A stretch of DNA of 48,804 bases from contig CAOKRT010000012.1 of the NCBI GenBank assembly GCA_948471205.1, forward strand, positions 1-48,804, in the 5' to 3' direction. How positions within the stretch are numbered: position 1 is the stretch's first letter; every line of letters begins with the position of its first letter. The notes under the pieces were generated by a model, which searched no databases, was not told where the DNA came from, and saw only the letters and a list, made by a program, of their open reading frames with translations. Source of the DNA: an uncultured Oscillospiraceae bacterium (GTDB taxonomy: Bacteria > Bacillota > Clostridia > Oscillospirales > Acutalibacteraceae). The translations under genes and the position numbers were made by a program. This document shows positions 20,163-26,594 of this stretch, piece by piece.

Positions 20163-20260
20163 ATTTGAAAAATATACTCAATATTTGTGTTTTCTATAAA
20201 TGTTTATTAAACAGATTATTTTCGGTTTCTTAGGCGGGAATTAACCGTAATAAAAATGAA

Positions 20261-20285
20261 AGGAGGGTGTTATCCCTCCTTTTTT
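20261..20285 (+). terminator. terminator after the asparaginase gene
   Basis: AGGAGGG (20261-20267), loop TGTTAT, CCCTCCT (20274-20280), then six T. It lies next to the 3' end of the convergent minus-strand operon and may serve both strands; the minus-strand T run is weaker. Confidence 0.85.
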
Positions 20286-20291
20286 GTGCTA

Positions 20292-20615
20292 TTATTTATT
20301 GCGCACAACAACTGCAGTGCCTGTGGCGATAACCATAATCATTCCTGCATTGCCGAATGATTCATAGTCAATTTTAACACCAACCACTGCGTTTGCACCC
20401 ATATGTGCCGCTTTGGTTTCCATTTCCCTTAAAGCATCGTTTCTGGCAGTCATCAGTTCTTCTTCATAGCCTGCCGATCTGCCGCCCACAATGTTTCGGA
20501 TGGATGCGCCGAAATCCTTTATAAAGTTAATTCCGGCAACAACCTCGCCTGTTATAATGCCTTTGTATTCAATGATTTCACCGTTTTCAAAGGTGGGTGT
20601 GGTAACACTTATCAT
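20292..20615 (-). CDS. YbjQ/UPF0145 family protein
   Basis: 107 residues matching the YbjQ (UPF0145, heavy-metal-binding-like) family: an N-terminal beta strand, IITGEVVAGINFIKDFGASIRNIVGGRSAGYEEEL, then ARNDALREMETKAAHMGANAVVGVKIDYE and a C-terminal TGTAVVV. The family forms pentameric rings; a biochemical role is not established. AGGAG on the minus strand favours ATG 20615 over TTG 20621. Last gene of the nfeD-SPFH operon. Confidence 0.87.
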   Translation of the reverse strand: MISVTTPTFENGEIIEYKGIITGEVVAGINFIKDFGASIRNIVGGRSAGYEEELMTARNDALREMETKAAHMGANAVVGVKIDYESFGNAGMIMVIATGTAVVVRNK

Positions 20616-20644: not shown

Positions 20645-21571
20645 TTATTTTTTCAGCACACCGTCAAGCCCTGCTGCAAGTCCGGCAAGCGACTGAATTT
20701 CACTTGGAATAATGATTTTGGTGGACTGACCGTCTGCGGCTTTCGCAAAGGCTTCCAGTGATTTAATTTTAACAACTGCTTCTGTCGGATCAGCATCTTT
20801 AAGCATTCTGATTCCGTCTGCTTCAGCCTGTTTAATTTTAAGAATTGCCTGTGCCTCACCGTCTGCTTCACGGATTTTCTGCTCACGAACAGCGTCTGCA
20901 CGAAGAATGGCAGACTGCTTTTCAGCTTCAGCTTCCAGTATTTTTGATTCCTTAAAGCCCTGTGCCTCAAGAATTCGGCTTTGCTTGTCACCTTCTGCAC
21001 GAAGAATAGATTCACGGCGTTCACGTTCTGCCTTCATCTGTTTTTCCATTGAATCCTGAATTTCTTTTGGGGGAAGAATGTTTTTAAGTTCTACGCGGTT
21101 TACTTTAATACCCCAGGGATCCGTTGCTTCGTCAAGAATGGATCGGATTTTTGTGTTGATGGTGTCTCTTGATGTAAGCGTAGCATCAAGCTCCAGCTCG
21201 CCTATAATATTACGCAGTGTTGTTGCGGTAAGATTTTCAATGGCGGCAAGCGGCGCTTCCACACCGTAACAGTAGAGTTTGGGATCTGTTATCTGGAAAA
21301 ATACAACGGTATCAATTTTCATTGTAACATTATCTTTTGTGATTACAGCCTGCGGAGCAAAATCCACAACCTGCTCTTTAAGCGAAACGATTTTTGCAAT
21401 TCTTTCAATAAACGGAATTTTGAATTTAAGACCGCCTGCCTCCCATGTGGCAGAATATTTTCCAAGTCTTTCTACAACATATGCCTTTGACTGCGGGATA
21501 ACTTTAATATTGGCAAGCAATATTATAATCAAAACAGCGGCTATAACACCTACAGCAATAATAAATTCCAT
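20645..21571 (-). CDS. SPFH/stomatin-like membrane protein (QmcA type)
   Basis: 308 residues. One N-terminal TM segment (about 3-22) is followed by the SPFH/band 7 domain (VIPQSKAYVVERLGKYSATW to NRVELKNILPP) and a long Ala/Glu-rich coiled coil (about 170-255), ending in a short IIIPSEIQSLAGLAAGL tail. Such proteins oligomerise at the membrane as scaffolds and pair with NfeD proteins; the NfeD partner is encoded 17 bp upstream. A minus-strand AAAGGAG precedes the ATG. Confidence 0.92.
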   Translation of the reverse strand: MEFIIAVGVIAAVLIIILLANIKVIPQSKAYVVERLGKYSATWEAGGLKFKIPFIERIAKIVSLKEQVVDFAPQAVITKDNVTMKIDTVVFFQITDPKLYCYGVEAPLAAIENLTATTLRNIIGELELDATLTSRDTINTKIRSILDEATDPWGIKVNRVELKNILPPKEIQDSMEKQMKAERERRESILRAEGDKQSRILEAQGFKESKILEAEAEKQSAILRADAVREQKIREADGEAQAILKIKQAEADGIRMLKDADPTEAVVKIKSLEAFAKAADGQSTKIIIPSEIQSLAGLAAGLDGVLKK

Positions 21572-21588: not shown

Positions 21589-22026
21589 TTATAAATTGTT
21601 TTGTTCGGCGGCTGAAACAATCAGCTTAACGCCTTCTATTCTGAGTACTTTAACCGGTGTTCCGGCTGAAACGGCAGAACCGTCATCACTTCGGGCAGAC
21701 CATATCTGATTATCCACCTTAACCTGCCCTTTTGCGTTGATATTGGATATATCTTCTGTTACAACAGCGGTTTTGCCTATGTAACGGTCTGCATTGGTTT
21801 TAATATGTTCTTTTTTCAGCGATTTTTTCGCAAGCGGGAAAATCACTGCCAGTGACACCGCTGACACAATGCAGAAAACAGTTGTCTGCACAGCGATGCT
21901 GTCGGTCAGAAAGCTTGTTAAAAGCGCGGCAAGACCGCCAAGCGCAAACCATATGGAAAGCAATTGTGCACTGATTGCTTCCACAATTACGGCAACTGCA
22001 ATTACGGCAATCCATATCCAGATCAT
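21589..22026 (-). CDS. NfeD-like membrane protein
   Basis: 145 residues. Hydrophobic segments lie at about 2-20, 28-45 and 50-68 (WFALGGLAALLTSF); the C-terminal OB-fold domain (about 80-140) has IGKTAVVTEDI and GTPVKVLRIEGVKLIV. This is the short NfeD form, without the ClpP-like protease domain. It is the partner of the SPFH protein downstream. GAGGAGG on the minus strand precedes the ATG. Its likely transcript begins beyond, or reads through, the structured RNA at 22165-22287. Confidence 0.88.
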   Translation of the reverse strand: MIWIWIAVIAVAVIVEAISAQLLSIWFALGGLAALLTSFLTDSIAVQTTVFCIVSAVSLAVIFPLAKKSLKKEHIKTNADRYIGKTAVVTEDISNINAKGQVKVDNQIWSARSDDGSAVSAGTPVKVLRIEGVKLIVSAAEQNNL

Positions 22027-22164: not shown

Positions 22165-22287
22165 TAAAAAAACTCATATACGGAAGCCGCATATGAGTCT
22201 CATTCATTAAAATTTTGCCAGAGGCTTTCATCCCTCGGTTGGTGACAAAATTCGCAATTTTATTTGTGGAATTACTCCCTCAATGTT
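22165..22287 (-). ncRNA. candidate structured RNA / riboswitch-like leader with intrinsic terminator
   Basis: A near-consensus promoter drives about 120 nt of non-coding RNA that ends at a perfect-looking terminator: minus strand ACTCATATGCGG, loop CTT, CCGTATATGAGT, then seven T (22198 to about 22165). Inside are a long-range stem GAATTTTG/CAAAATTT (22253-22246 with 22217-22210), a nested hairpin CCGAGG/CCTCTGG with an 8-nt loop (22238-22218), and a competing local hairpin AAAATT/AATTTT. A TGAG near the 5' end (22282-22279) can pair with CTCA in the 5' arm of the terminator (22197-22194), so two exclusive folds are possible. No known class is recognised; GGGAGTAA near the 5' end faintly recalls yybP-ykoY, but the rest does not. 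It could be a free sRNA or a switch for nfeD. Confidence 0.65.
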
Positions 22288-22293
22288 GAATTG

Positions 22294-22322
22294 ATTATAC
22301 CACAAATTCGACAAAATGTCAA
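22294..22322 (-). promoter_or_regulatory. consensus promoter of the structured RNA
   Basis: Minus strand: TTGACA (22322-22317), 17-bp spacer, TATAAT (22299-22294). All twelve consensus bases match. Its -35 box is 13 bp from the -35 box of the divergent ClC promoter. Confidence 0.88.
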
Positions 22323-22335
22323 TACATTTATTGAG

Positions 22336-22363
22336 TTGACAAAACCCGGCGCTGTCGTATAAT
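22336..22363 (+). promoter_or_regulatory. promoter of the ClC gene
   Basis: TTGACA at 22336-22341, 16-bp spacer, TATAAT at 22358-22363; divergent from the promoter of the structured RNA. Confidence 0.85.
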
Positions 22364-22422
22364 ATAAAAATATAAATTAAAAATAAGCGGAAATTCGGCA
22401 TTGAATTTTTTAGGTGAAAAAT

Positions 22423-23985
22423 ATGAAAGAAAAAGGAAAAACAACTTTCAGAAAAATTGAATACAGCAGAAAAGAAAGTTTTTATCTGATTGTGCGGGGT
22501 ATAGAGGTTGGCATAGCAGCAGGGTTGGTTTGTGTTTTATACCGCTTTCTGCTTTCCAAGGCTGAAGAATATCTTTATGCGGTTATAGAGTATGTTAAAG
22601 GAAATCCGTTTAAAACAGCATTATGGTTGTTTTTACTTTCTCTTCTTGGTGCGGCTGTTTCGTATATTATTAAATGGGAGCCGCTTGCGGGCGGATCGGG
22701 CATACCGCAGGTAACAGGAGAAATAAGAGGGTATTTATCGCATAACTGGCTTCGTGTTATTGCTGCGAAGCTTATCGGAAGCACTGTTTCAATCTTTGCA
22801 GGGCTTTCTCTTGGCAGGGAAGGTCCCAGTATTCAGTTTGGCGCAATGGCGGCTAAAGGCGCAGCAAGAATAACAAAAGCAGATAAAACAACGGAACTGC
22901 GTATGATAAGCTGCGGAGCAGGCGCCGGAATGGCCGCCGCATTCAATTCGCCGCTTGCGGGCATTATGTTTGTGCTTGAAGAAATTCATCACACTTTTGA
23001 CAAGGCCATTCTGTGCATGGGAATTGTGGCAACCATAACCGCTGATTTTGTTTCAAAGCTGTTTTTCGGGCAGGGAACCGTTTTTGATTATAATCCGGAA
23101 AATCTGCCGCTGAGATACTATTGGCTTCTTATTATTTTCGGAATTCTGCTCGGTATTTTCGGTTCTCTTTATAATATGATTATGGTAAAAGGGCAGAATT
23201 TATACAAAAAAATCGGAAAAATTCCCGCATGGCTGAAATTGGCAGTGGTTTTTGCATTGTGCGGCGTTGTCGGTCTTCTGCTTCCCCAGGTGCTTTGCGG
23301 CGGACACAGTATGGTGGATTTTCTTTTGAAAGAGCATCCGTCTGTTTCCGTTATGCTGCTTTTGCTGATTGCAAAGTTTTTTTTCGGTGTTTTCAGTTTC
23401 AGTTCGGGCGCGCCCGGCGGAACGCTTTATCCGATGACGGTTCTGGGCACCTATATAGGCGCTGTTTTCGGCGAAGCGGCAACAAAGGTATTTCATCTTA
23501 ACGGTGATTTATGGGAAGAATTTGTTGTGCTTGGTATGGCAGGGCTTTTTGCGTCTATTGTGCGTGCACCGATTACAGGTGTTATTGTGGTTTTTGAAAT
23601 AACAGGAAATATGGACAGCCTGCTTCCGCTGGCCGCTGTAAGCCTTGTTTCCTATGCTACGGCAAATATGCTCGGTTCAACACCGTTTTATTCATCGCTG
23701 CTCAGCGGAGTTTTAAAAGGAAAAGAAAATGCGCCCGCAGGTTCGGGTGAAAAAGTGCTGCGCACCTTTGTTGTGCCGACAGGCAGTTTGCTGAAAAATA
23801 AAAAAATATCGGACATAGACTGGGGCAAGCATTGTATCATTGTTTCGGTTGAACGCAATGAAAAGCCGATTACACCTAAAGGAGATTTGAAAATTCTGGA
23901 AGGGGATGAACTTGTTTTTCTGATAAGCCAGCGCCGTTTTGCACGGGATATTTCCAGAATTGAAAAAATCGTAAACGGAGAATAA
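22423..23985 (+). CDS. ClC-type chloride/proton antiporter with RCK_C domain
   Basis: An integral membrane protein of 520 residues. The three ClC anion-filter motifs are GGSGIPQ, GREGPSIQ and GAPGGTLYP. The Glu in GREGP (gating glutamate) and the Glu pair in VLEEIHHTF (internal proton glutamate) are both kept, pointing to a 2Cl-/H+ antiporter rather than a channel. The C-terminal ~75 residues (FVVPTGSLLKNKKISDIDWG to GDELVFLIS) are a TrkA-C/RCK_C regulatory domain. ATG 22423 is preferred over GTG 22414, because AGGTGA then has normal spacing. Confidence 0.92.
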   Translation: MKEKGKTTFRKIEYSRKESFYLIVRGIEVGIAAGLVCVLYRFLLSKAEEYLYAVIEYVKGNPFKTALWLFLLSLLGAAVSYIIKWEPLAGGSGIPQVTGEIRGYLSHNWLRVIAAKLIGSTVSIFAGLSLGREGPSIQFGAMAAKGAARITKADKTTELRMISCGAGAGMAAAFNSPLAGIMFVLEEIHHTFDKAILCMGIVATITADFVSKLFFGQGTVFDYNPENLPLRYYWLLIIFGILLGIFGSLYNMIMVKGQNLYKKIGKIPAWLKLAVVFALCGVVGLLLPQVLCGGHSMVDFLLKEHPSVSVMLLLLIAKFFFGVFSFSSGAPGGTLYPMTVLGTYIGAVFGEAATKVFHLNGDLWEEFVVLGMAGLFASIVRAPITGVIVVFEITGNMDSLLPLAAVSLVSYATANMLGSTPFYSSLLSGVLKGKENAPAGSGEKVLRTFVVPTGSLLKNKKISDIDWGKHCIIVSVERNEKPITPKGDLKILEGDELVFLISQRRFARDISRIEKIVNGE

Positions 23986-25577: not shown

Positions 25578-26510
25578 ATGTCTAATGAAAATAAAAAGTT
25601 CAATTACGGTCTCTATGCCGTTACGGTTTTTGCAGCCGTTGCAGTTATTCTTGTTTTAATTACAACATTTACATTTAAAAGCAAGTACGTTGCTTTTGAC
25701 GAAGAAAAAGTTGCCGTTAATTTTACAGATACCATTGCTCAAAAAGGCGACGGCTATAATGCTTACAAATTTACACTCGCTTCAAAAGCAGAAAAATACG
25801 GTGATTTTGTCCGTCAGCAGTTTATGTATCCTGTTATTTATCCCGGATATACGGCAGGAATGGATAAGGATGCGTTTAAAGAACTTCAGGAAAACGGATT
25901 TGATACAGATGCGCATAAATCGGATGCAACAAAAAATGATGACGGAAAGCTTGCCGGTGAGGTTGCAGACAAAATGTATGATTACTATGCCGAACTGATG
26001 CGTACTGTAGGTTGGGACGATTATGCAACCGTTTATACAAATTACTTCAATAAGCTCGCCGAAGTTAGAAAAGAAGTTTTCGGTGACGATTATATGAGCG
26101 ATGAGGTTATGTTTACTGCGCTTGAAGCCAATGTTGCAGCGTACGGAAATTCACTTACCGGAACAGAAAAAAAGCTTGCTGCAGATGAAAAAACAGTTAT
26201 TCAGGAGGAAACAACAGGTTTTTATCAGACTGTTTTCGGAAAAGATTATAAATTTATAACAGAAGCAAAAAATGTTGAAATTATTTCTGATTTAGAAACA
26301 TATAAAGCTTCTCTTTCAGAAGAAGAACTTCAGAAATATGAAATTTCGGCAGATGATATTACCGAAGCGGCAAAGGTACTTGTTGATGTTTCACTGGAAG
26401 ATGGAACCGTGATTGCCTCTGCAGAAATTTATGAGGTAAAAATCGGCAGCACTTGGTATGTTGATAATATTACAACAAATACCCAGGCTTTATATTCTGT
26501 TTCACGCTAA
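25578..26510 (+). CDS. membrane-anchored extracytoplasmic protein, unknown family
   Basis: 310 residues. One N-terminal TM segment (about 12-34) without a lipobox Cys is followed by an acidic, helix-rich, Tyr-containing domain outside the cell. No family is recognised. AGGGGGG before ATG 25578 sets the start. It is transcribed with the GPH symporter and shares its terminator. A role as an accessory or binding subunit of that carrier is a hypothesis from neighbourhood only. Confidence 0.75.
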   Translation: MSNENKKFNYGLYAVTVFAAVAVILVLITTFTFKSKYVAFDEEKVAVNFTDTIAQKGDGYNAYKFTLASKAEKYGDFVRQQFMYPVIYPGYTAGMDKDAFKELQENGFDTDAHKSDATKNDDGKLAGEVADKMYDYYAELMRTVGWDDYATVYTNYFNKLAEVRKEVFGDDYMSDEVMFTALEANVAAYGNSLTGTEKKLAADEKTVIQEETTGFYQTVFGKDYKFITEAKNVEIISDLETYKASLSEEELQKYEISADDITEAAKVLVDVSLEDGTVIASAEIYEVKIGSTWYVDNITTNTQALYSVSR

Positions 26511-26528
26511 AATAAAGAAATACAGTCA

Positions 26529-26558
26529 GCGGACGGCATTTGCCGTCCGCCTTTGTTT
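26529..26558 (+). terminator. terminator of the symporter operon
   Basis: GCGGACGGCA and TGCCGTCCGC (26529-26550) form a 10-bp stem, followed by CTTTGTTTT. Confidence 0.88.
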
Positions 26559-26567
26559 TAATACAAA

Positions 26568-26594
26568 TAAAAAAGACTTCTCGAAAACGAGAAG
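26568..26594 (-). terminator. terminator of ilvE
   Basis: Minus strand: CTTCTCG, loop TTTT, CGAGAAG, then GTCTTTTTT. It lies 17 bp past the stop of the aminotransferase gene, back to back with the plus-strand terminator. Confidence 0.85.

Follow-up and report, generated by a model that had tools for sequence, protein, structure and literature searches.

Manganese riboswitches in the literature

The closest described systems are the Mn2+ riboswitches of the yybP-ykoY class (Rfam RF00080), among them those of L. lactis yoaB, X. oryzae and E. coli mntP. As excerpts of the structural work describe it, Mn2+ docks loop L1 to loop L3 and stabilises the switch helix P1.1 against strand invasion (PMC11087558, PMC6754395), and the metal is contacted by an invariable L3 adenosine, A41 in the Llac and A48 in the Xory structure (PMC6754395). 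The leader of E. coli alx has also been reported as a Mn-sensing riboswitch (PMC9603457) and, going by the title of the publication, a P-type Mn2+/Ca2+ ATPase of Streptococcus has been described as controlled by a Mn riboswitch. Excerpts of the 2013 regulon survey named no SPFH target (PMC3766115). A literature search for a Mn riboswitch together with SPFH, NfeD, flotillin, stomatin or YbjQ showed no such link among the matches listed, an earlier mention being possible. One paper combines manganese, riboswitch and flotillin (PMC10550928); in its excerpts meeY is under the switch and the flotillins appear only as co-purifying proteins, FloT and FloA of B. subtilis being recovered with the Mn transporters MeeF/MeeY, which are TerC proteins.

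Promoter, fold and terminator of the leader

The window analysed here is the whole stretch of 48,804 nt of contig CAOKRT010000012.1, and the leader element occupies 22165-22287 on its minus strand. A pattern scan found a sigma-70 type promoter at 22294..22322 (minus strand), with the -35 box TTGACA at 22322-22317 and the -10 box TATAAT at 22299-22294. It matched 12 of 12 consensus bases with a 17-nt spacer and a TG ahead of the -10 box, which agrees with the perfect promoter described in an earlier note on this DNA, and transcription would start near 22287. Folding of the leader gave a z-score of -4.36 against 200 dinucleotide shuffles, none of which folded as well. The intrinsic terminator (22166..22198, minus strand) was absent from the pattern-scan output and was revealed by folding instead, in which 22198-22187 paired with 22183-22172 around a 3-nt loop with a T run at 22172-22166; the 12-bp terminator of the earlier note was thereby recovered with all 12 pairs. 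Part of its 5' arm doubles as the 3' strand of P1.1. Promoter and terminator together would yield an RNA of about 120 nt.

Homology of the leader to manganese riboswitches

The Rfam search of the whole window gave no family at its cut-off, and a lax search of the leader pointed to no riboswitch either, RF00080 being unlisted even at E ≤10. Sub-threshold Rfam matches in the leader (L10 leader, trpB, miRNAs and others) were rejected as chance. The RF00080 model scored E. coli mntP at 41.6 bits, under its cut-off of 45, and E. coli alx was absent from its matches at E ≤0.1. None of 20 loci from the genus, order and class, nine of which lie upstream of MntP, passed the cut-off. Because mntP, alx and these 20 related loci also fail, the RF00080 cut-off was not treated as class-defining, and since the model misses even the two E. 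coli leaders, absence from Rfam means little. From the 0 of 20 result it would seem that many Mn riboswitches in the class of the window escape the Rfam model, and RF00080 may need rebuilding.

A DNA search of 60 genomes gave matches in 11, the window's own genome included, and at loci L008 and L014 a related leader stood ahead of a cation P-type ATPase gene. RF00080 searched over 60 relatives produced weak matches in 12 with none above the cut-off, and most of these resembled coding sequence when judged by eye. The match at locus L015 (20.2 bits) contains GAGGGAGUA, ends with GCGAGACUC and a terminator, and precedes an mntP gene (PF02659, E 1.3e-38); this weak match before mntP provided a clue to the class.

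Two covariance models were then compared with the leaders. A MAFFT alignment of nine elements (A1) misaligned L3, as judged by eye, and model R1 was therefore built from six nfeD-linked aptamers only (alignment A2). R1 scored L014, L008 and L015 at 50.3, 45.7 and 42.4 bits, with E-values from 1e-10 to 2e-8, but the two E. coli leaders, mntP and alx, both went undetected at E ≤10. Model R2 was built from 18 canonical proteobacterial Mn riboswitch leaders, out of 63 extracted by script from 80 loci, and these 18 were chosen with a search pattern in which much of L1 and L3 is preset. With filters off, R2 matched 22191-22286 (minus strand) at a modest 25.0 bits, with E 2.8e-6 in 3 kb and 4.6e-5 over the 48.8-kb window. 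The second-best R2 match in the window (26496-26591, 13.7 bits) was discarded because it overlaps a terminator region between genes. With default filters R2 found 6 of 67 genus elements and missed that of the window; unfiltered, it recovered 12 of 12 order loci, with E no higher than 1.4e-5 for 11. It scored E. coli mntP at 95.4 bits, while E. coli alx was missed by RF00080, R1 and R2 alike. As R1 misses both mntP and alx and R2 misses alx, neither model is a complete detector.

The two-way homology places the element among the yybP-ykoY riboswitches, and in all likelihood it is a divergent transcriptional ON riboswitch of this known class (Mn2+, RF00080), with Mn2+ as the presumed ligand. The earlier note had left the element outside any known class and had proposed Rfam as a check: no family reached the cut-off there, but by R1 and R2 the class is a known one. 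An undescribed riboswitch class, unrelated to the known ones, would fit the lack of any Rfam family at its cut-off in the window, but homology with Mn riboswitches in both directions and the MntP and ATPase contexts make such a class exceedingly improbable. What appears new in the proposed Mn2+ riboswitch, as far as we have seen, is a P4-less variant with a short L3 and SPFH targets.

Elements in relatives and their downstream genes

In 80 genomes of the genus, R1 found 67 places in 56 genomes, among them another copy in the genome of the window itself. The ten nfeD-linked elements scored above 100 bits (six of these were the training sequences) and the other genus elements 25-54 bits. Downstream of the 67 genus elements that were aligned, made up of 66 of these places and L015, were 54 P-type ATPase genes, ten NfeD and SPFH pairs, one MntP gene, one radical SAM gene and one contig end. 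The 54 ATPases formed one blastp cluster, of which three members were checked with Pfam. The radical SAM case (L041:1501-1591, genome G082) is a Mn-riboswitch-type element with 50.9 bits in R1 and 39.4 bits in R2; the radical SAM/SPASM protein that it precedes was not expected as a target.

R1 also matched in 49 of 394 order genomes and 33 of 391 class genomes, the window's own genome being counted in each. Outside the genus 71 places were counted, 45 of the 46 in the order and 26 of the 33 additional ones in the class; those left out were order locus L231 and class loci L298 and L317, in which the script recognised no core, and five other class places. Their downstream genes were 31 P-type ATPases, 28 MntP, eight Na/Ca-exchanger-like genes, one flotillin and three others, so that an ATPase, MntP or exchanger-like gene followed in 67 of 71 places. 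MntP is, by its Pfam name, a Mn efflux family. Labels were assigned by blastp to reference proteins, by Pfam (three loci) or by eye; L221 entered the ATPase count on the strength of a match that is short and weak, and L262, an order match of 26.9 bits that is not aptamer-like, was rejected and counted as other. Elements at about position 1501 with 39.3 bits each in R1 preceded a ferredoxin-like ORF at L314 (G542) and, by about 235 nt, a MerR-like ORF at L239 (G382), both labelled by eye. A strong THF riboswitch (91.9 bits) was found at L235:704-802 (minus strand) near a MntP-linked Mn switch.

Anatomy and conservation of the aptamer

The yybP-ykoY-type (Mn2+) aptamer spans about 96 nt (22191..22286, minus strand), as delimited by the unfiltered R2 match and backed by R1 matches in relatives, and its parts, all on the minus strand, were mapped onto published structures as given in excerpts (PMC6754395, PMC9190785, PMC11087558). 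In the switch helix P1.1 (UGAG/CUCA), the 5' strand at 22279..22282 pairs with 22197-22194. The same pairing had been singled out in the earlier note as TGAG with CTCA, and it proved to be a conserved helix of the class. L1 has its 5' side GGAGUA at 22273..22278 and its 3' side GAGA at 22201-22198, and the full motif reads GGGAGUA at 22279-22273 and GAGAC at 22201-22197. GGGAGTA was found in 66 of 67 genus elements, as was GAGAC (66 of 67). The L1 counterpart GGGGAGUAGC is present in the Rfam consensus of RF00080 and the motif occurs in E. coli mntP as well; the 18 training sequences of R2 carry it because they were selected for it.

Conservation of the stems was assessed in A3, an alignment of 67 rows made of 66 of the 67 genus R1 places and L015, from which L093, cut by a contig end, was excluded. 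Double changes were found in 4 of 4 pairs of P1.2, in which AUUC (22269..22272) pairs with GAAU (22205-22202), and in 5 of 5 pairs of the P2 hairpin CACAA/UUGCG (22253..22268; 22268-22264 with 22257-22253), which has a single A.C mismatch in the window element and A-U or G-C at that place in relatives. P3.1 (22211..22252; 22252-22243 with 22220-22211) has ten pairs, eight with double changes, and encloses L3 and the P3.2 hairpin GAGG/CCUC (22221..22236; 22236-22233 with 22224-22221), in which 3 of 4 pairs showed them. The nested stem-loop recognised earlier corresponds to P3.1 and P3.2. Overall, 97.6% of cells in A3 were paired and 21 of 26 pairs showed double-sided changes, counts that lean in favour of the structure because A3 was fitted to the model structure; 0 of 500 shuffles reached either value and pairing dropped to 29-43% in slid controls. 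Covarying stems, which the earlier note had named as support, were thus present. In the six nfeD-linked rows alone double changes were found in two pairs only, and 22 of 500 shuffles were as high. The local AAAATT/AATTTT hairpin of the earlier note fared differently and was not conserved: 80.6% of cells were paired with no covariation in six sequences, and 3 of its 6 pairs were broken in two or three of them.

The sensor loop L3 reads CCAACC (22237..22242), with A22240 in the position of the Mn-contacting A41/A48. All 66 genus elements resolved by the script, L059 being the exception, have A as the third L3 base, and the CA formed with the preceding C was kept in all 66. L3 had 6 nt in nine of the ten nfeD-linked elements, the tenth having a P3.2 mismatch and a script-scored length of 8; in all 56 resolved genus elements that are not nfeD-linked it was 7-8 nt long. 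This difference raises a second reading, in which fold and switch are the same and the short L3 ([CU]CAACC) alters metal preference or affinity, toward another divalent ion or another Mn2+ range. The separation of the nfeD-linked elements from the others by R1 score, for which six of ten were training sequences, and the annotation of YbjQ as putative heavy-metal-binding are in line with it. On the other hand, the Mn-contacting A and its preceding C are kept in every resolved element, L3 length itself varies from 7 to 8 among the ATPase-linked elements, and P3.2 could restore 7 nt by opening one pair, so that altered metal sensing appears unlikely next to an Mn2+ riboswitch of ordinary preference.

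No P4 was found in the window element, in which just five unpaired bases (22210-22206) separate P3.1 from P1.2. Two genus elements, L091 and L095, have a 6-pair hairpin at the P4 place and MntP-linked members in the class appear P4-less by eye; P4 therefore looks optional and was not used as a membership criterion. No published statement on whether the class needs P4 was found.

Predicted switch mechanism

All 67 genus elements have a terminator with 10 or more pairs that is anchored on the 3' strand of P1.1; among mononucleotide shuffles the figure is 107 of 6700. Some relatives have AAG/CUU as P1.1 in place of GAG/CUC, and the terminator follows suit (e.g. L049). This strand sharing and the covarying stems support the two exclusive folds, and the transcriptional riboswitch they would form, that had been suggested in the earlier note. 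A ribosomal-protein or other leader or attenuator, or an independent small RNA whose 3' end is set by the terminator, was also considered. The L10 leader had the highest sub-threshold Rfam score (20.1 bits, E 0.37) and a transcript of the length given above would suit a small RNA; the L10 score, however, is under half of its cut-off of 44 and the operon holds no ribosomal gene, 65 of the 67 genus elements read into a same-strand P-type ATPase, NfeD/SPFH or MntP gene, and the P1.1 strand is shared with the terminator throughout, which makes readings of this kind very improbable.

For the proposed Mn2+ riboswitch, calculation without ligand favoured the terminator fold, at -29.0 kcal/mol, over the aptamer fold, at -15.6 kcal/mol, which points to a switch that is OFF by default. 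P1.1 was only transient in the nascent RNA, with a pair probability of at most 0.49 among six lengths. Together with the published docking mechanism, these energies predict an ON switch. Without ligand, the nascent RNA would fold the 12-bp terminator and transcription would stop near 22166. Mn2+ bridging L1 and L3 would stabilise P1.1, and since P1.1 holds the strand needed by the terminator, polymerase would read on into nfeD-SPFH-ybjQ. An excess of Mn2+ would then raise this operon for membrane scaffolding and quality control together with the cation P-type ATPase behind the second switch copy of the same genome. Such regulation is predicted from what can be read in the DNA, namely homology, a conserved core, covariation, the P1.1/terminator overlap and gene order.

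Operon, genome context and evolution

The first operon gene is nfeD (21589..22026, minus strand; PF01957, E 1.7e-19), followed on the same strand by a SPFH/Band 7 gene (20645..21571; PF01145, E 4.2e-40), labelled stomatin-like because it is paired with NfeD, and by ybjQ (20292..20615; PF01906, 'putative heavy-metal-binding', E 2e-36) with an ATG start at 20615. A likely operon-end terminator at 20250..20280 (minus strand) was recognised by eye as an AGGAGGG/CCCTCCT inverted repeat with a T-rich tail. To our knowledge, little is understood of what NfeD/SPFH operons do. The earlier remark that a membrane-scaffold operon is an unusual riboswitch target still holds.

A second promoter (22336-22363, plus strand; TTGACA-16-TATAAT, 12 of 12 consensus bases) is divergent and reads toward a CLC channel gene (22414-23985, plus strand; PF00654 and TrkA_C). 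Another CLC channel gene (L015:2669-3142, genome G023) lies about 400 nt past the riboswitch-linked mntP, so that CLC genes adjoin Mn-switch loci at least twice in the genus. No recognisable mntP was found in the window's genome, and its Mn regulon would, by R1, therefore consist of the P-type ATPase and the nfeD operon.

NfeD was present in 71 of 80 genus genomes and the element in 10 of these 71. An unfiltered scan of 29 NfeD loci showed the element before eight, the next best match having 14.6 bits, and the window and G015 bring the carriers to ten; the remaining 40-odd NfeD genomes were covered by the filtered R1 search only. On a tree of NfeD and SPFH (30 rows, one short row dropped) the carriers needed two changes, against 8.6 with shuffled labels, which would correspond either to one gain with a loss in a four-genome branch or to two gains. 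The nfeD-operon leader of L010 (G009; near 237), from a genome nested beside carriers, is aptamer-less; it keeps the promoter and the ACATTAAGGGA start and then continues as a different long leader.

The four aptamer-less genomes nested beside carriers in the tree would also suit a decayed Mn riboswitch, in which sensing was lost and a constitutive attenuator left. Against decay, L1, the CA of L3 and the P1.1/terminator overlap are kept in the ten carriers, and P3.1 has two double changes among the six nfeD-linked rows; a decayed switch is accordingly improbable, and a working Mn2+ riboswitch is preferred.

Flotillin-linked elements and possible role under manganese excess

A switch before a flotillin-family gene was found in two species (G390 and G426) of one genus (g137) in another family, with R1 scores of 43.6 bits (L226/L275 of G390) and 41.4 bits (L276 of G426). 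Of 30 flotillin loci scanned, 28 were without a convincing aptamer, and some of these loci may end short of the leader. A Mn switch before the NfeD/SPFH operon, and before flotillin elsewhere, would supply a concrete inducing signal.

Excerpts of other work report that Mn2+ excess triggers cleavage of MgtE by YqgP, which hands MgtE to FtsH (PMC7231995), and that FtsH has an interaction partner in the stomatin-type SPFH/NfeD pair YbbK/YbbJ of E. coli (PMC2636767). On the basis of these links to FtsH and of the co-purification of flotillins with TerC proteins, we propose that Mn excess may call for membrane-protein quality control or metalation, to which the operon would contribute under Mn stress. 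A wider and more tentative picture, possible but doubtful at present, is that a clade-specific Mn riboswitch with a 6-nt L3 and altered metal tuning controls NfeD/SPFH/YbjQ, that flotillin was independently recruited elsewhere, and that SPFH scaffolds form a recurrent, previously unseen arm of the response to metal excess.

Comparison with known systems

Compared with the yybP-ykoY Mn2+ riboswitches of L. lactis yoaB, X. oryzae and E. coli mntP, the window element has the same L1 (GGGAGUA/GAGAC), the same L3 CA including the adenosine that contacts Mn, a P3.1 with closing pairs of the UCA/UGG type, and a P1.1 switch helix in competition with a terminator. The solved structures have four helices, whereas the window element has no P4 helix or four-way junction; the Mn-binding structures have a 7-nt L3, whereas here it is the 6-nt CCAACC. 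It is also below Rfam detection, and its target is nfeD-SPFH-ybjQ, not a transporter. The ATPase-linked copy in the same genome, L059 (G000:C3:90502-90609; 48.0 bits in R1), likewise has no P4. ATPase-linked genus elements share the P1.1/terminator layout of the window element but differ in an L3 of 7-8 nt starting ACA, in other P2 and P3 sequences and in their target, a cation P-type ATPase. The flotillin-linked element L226 is alike in having promoter, aptamer and terminator before a SPFH-family gene (promoter and terminator by eye), and it differs in a 7-nt L3 (by eye), in Band_7 and Flot domains of the protein, and in belonging to another lineage.
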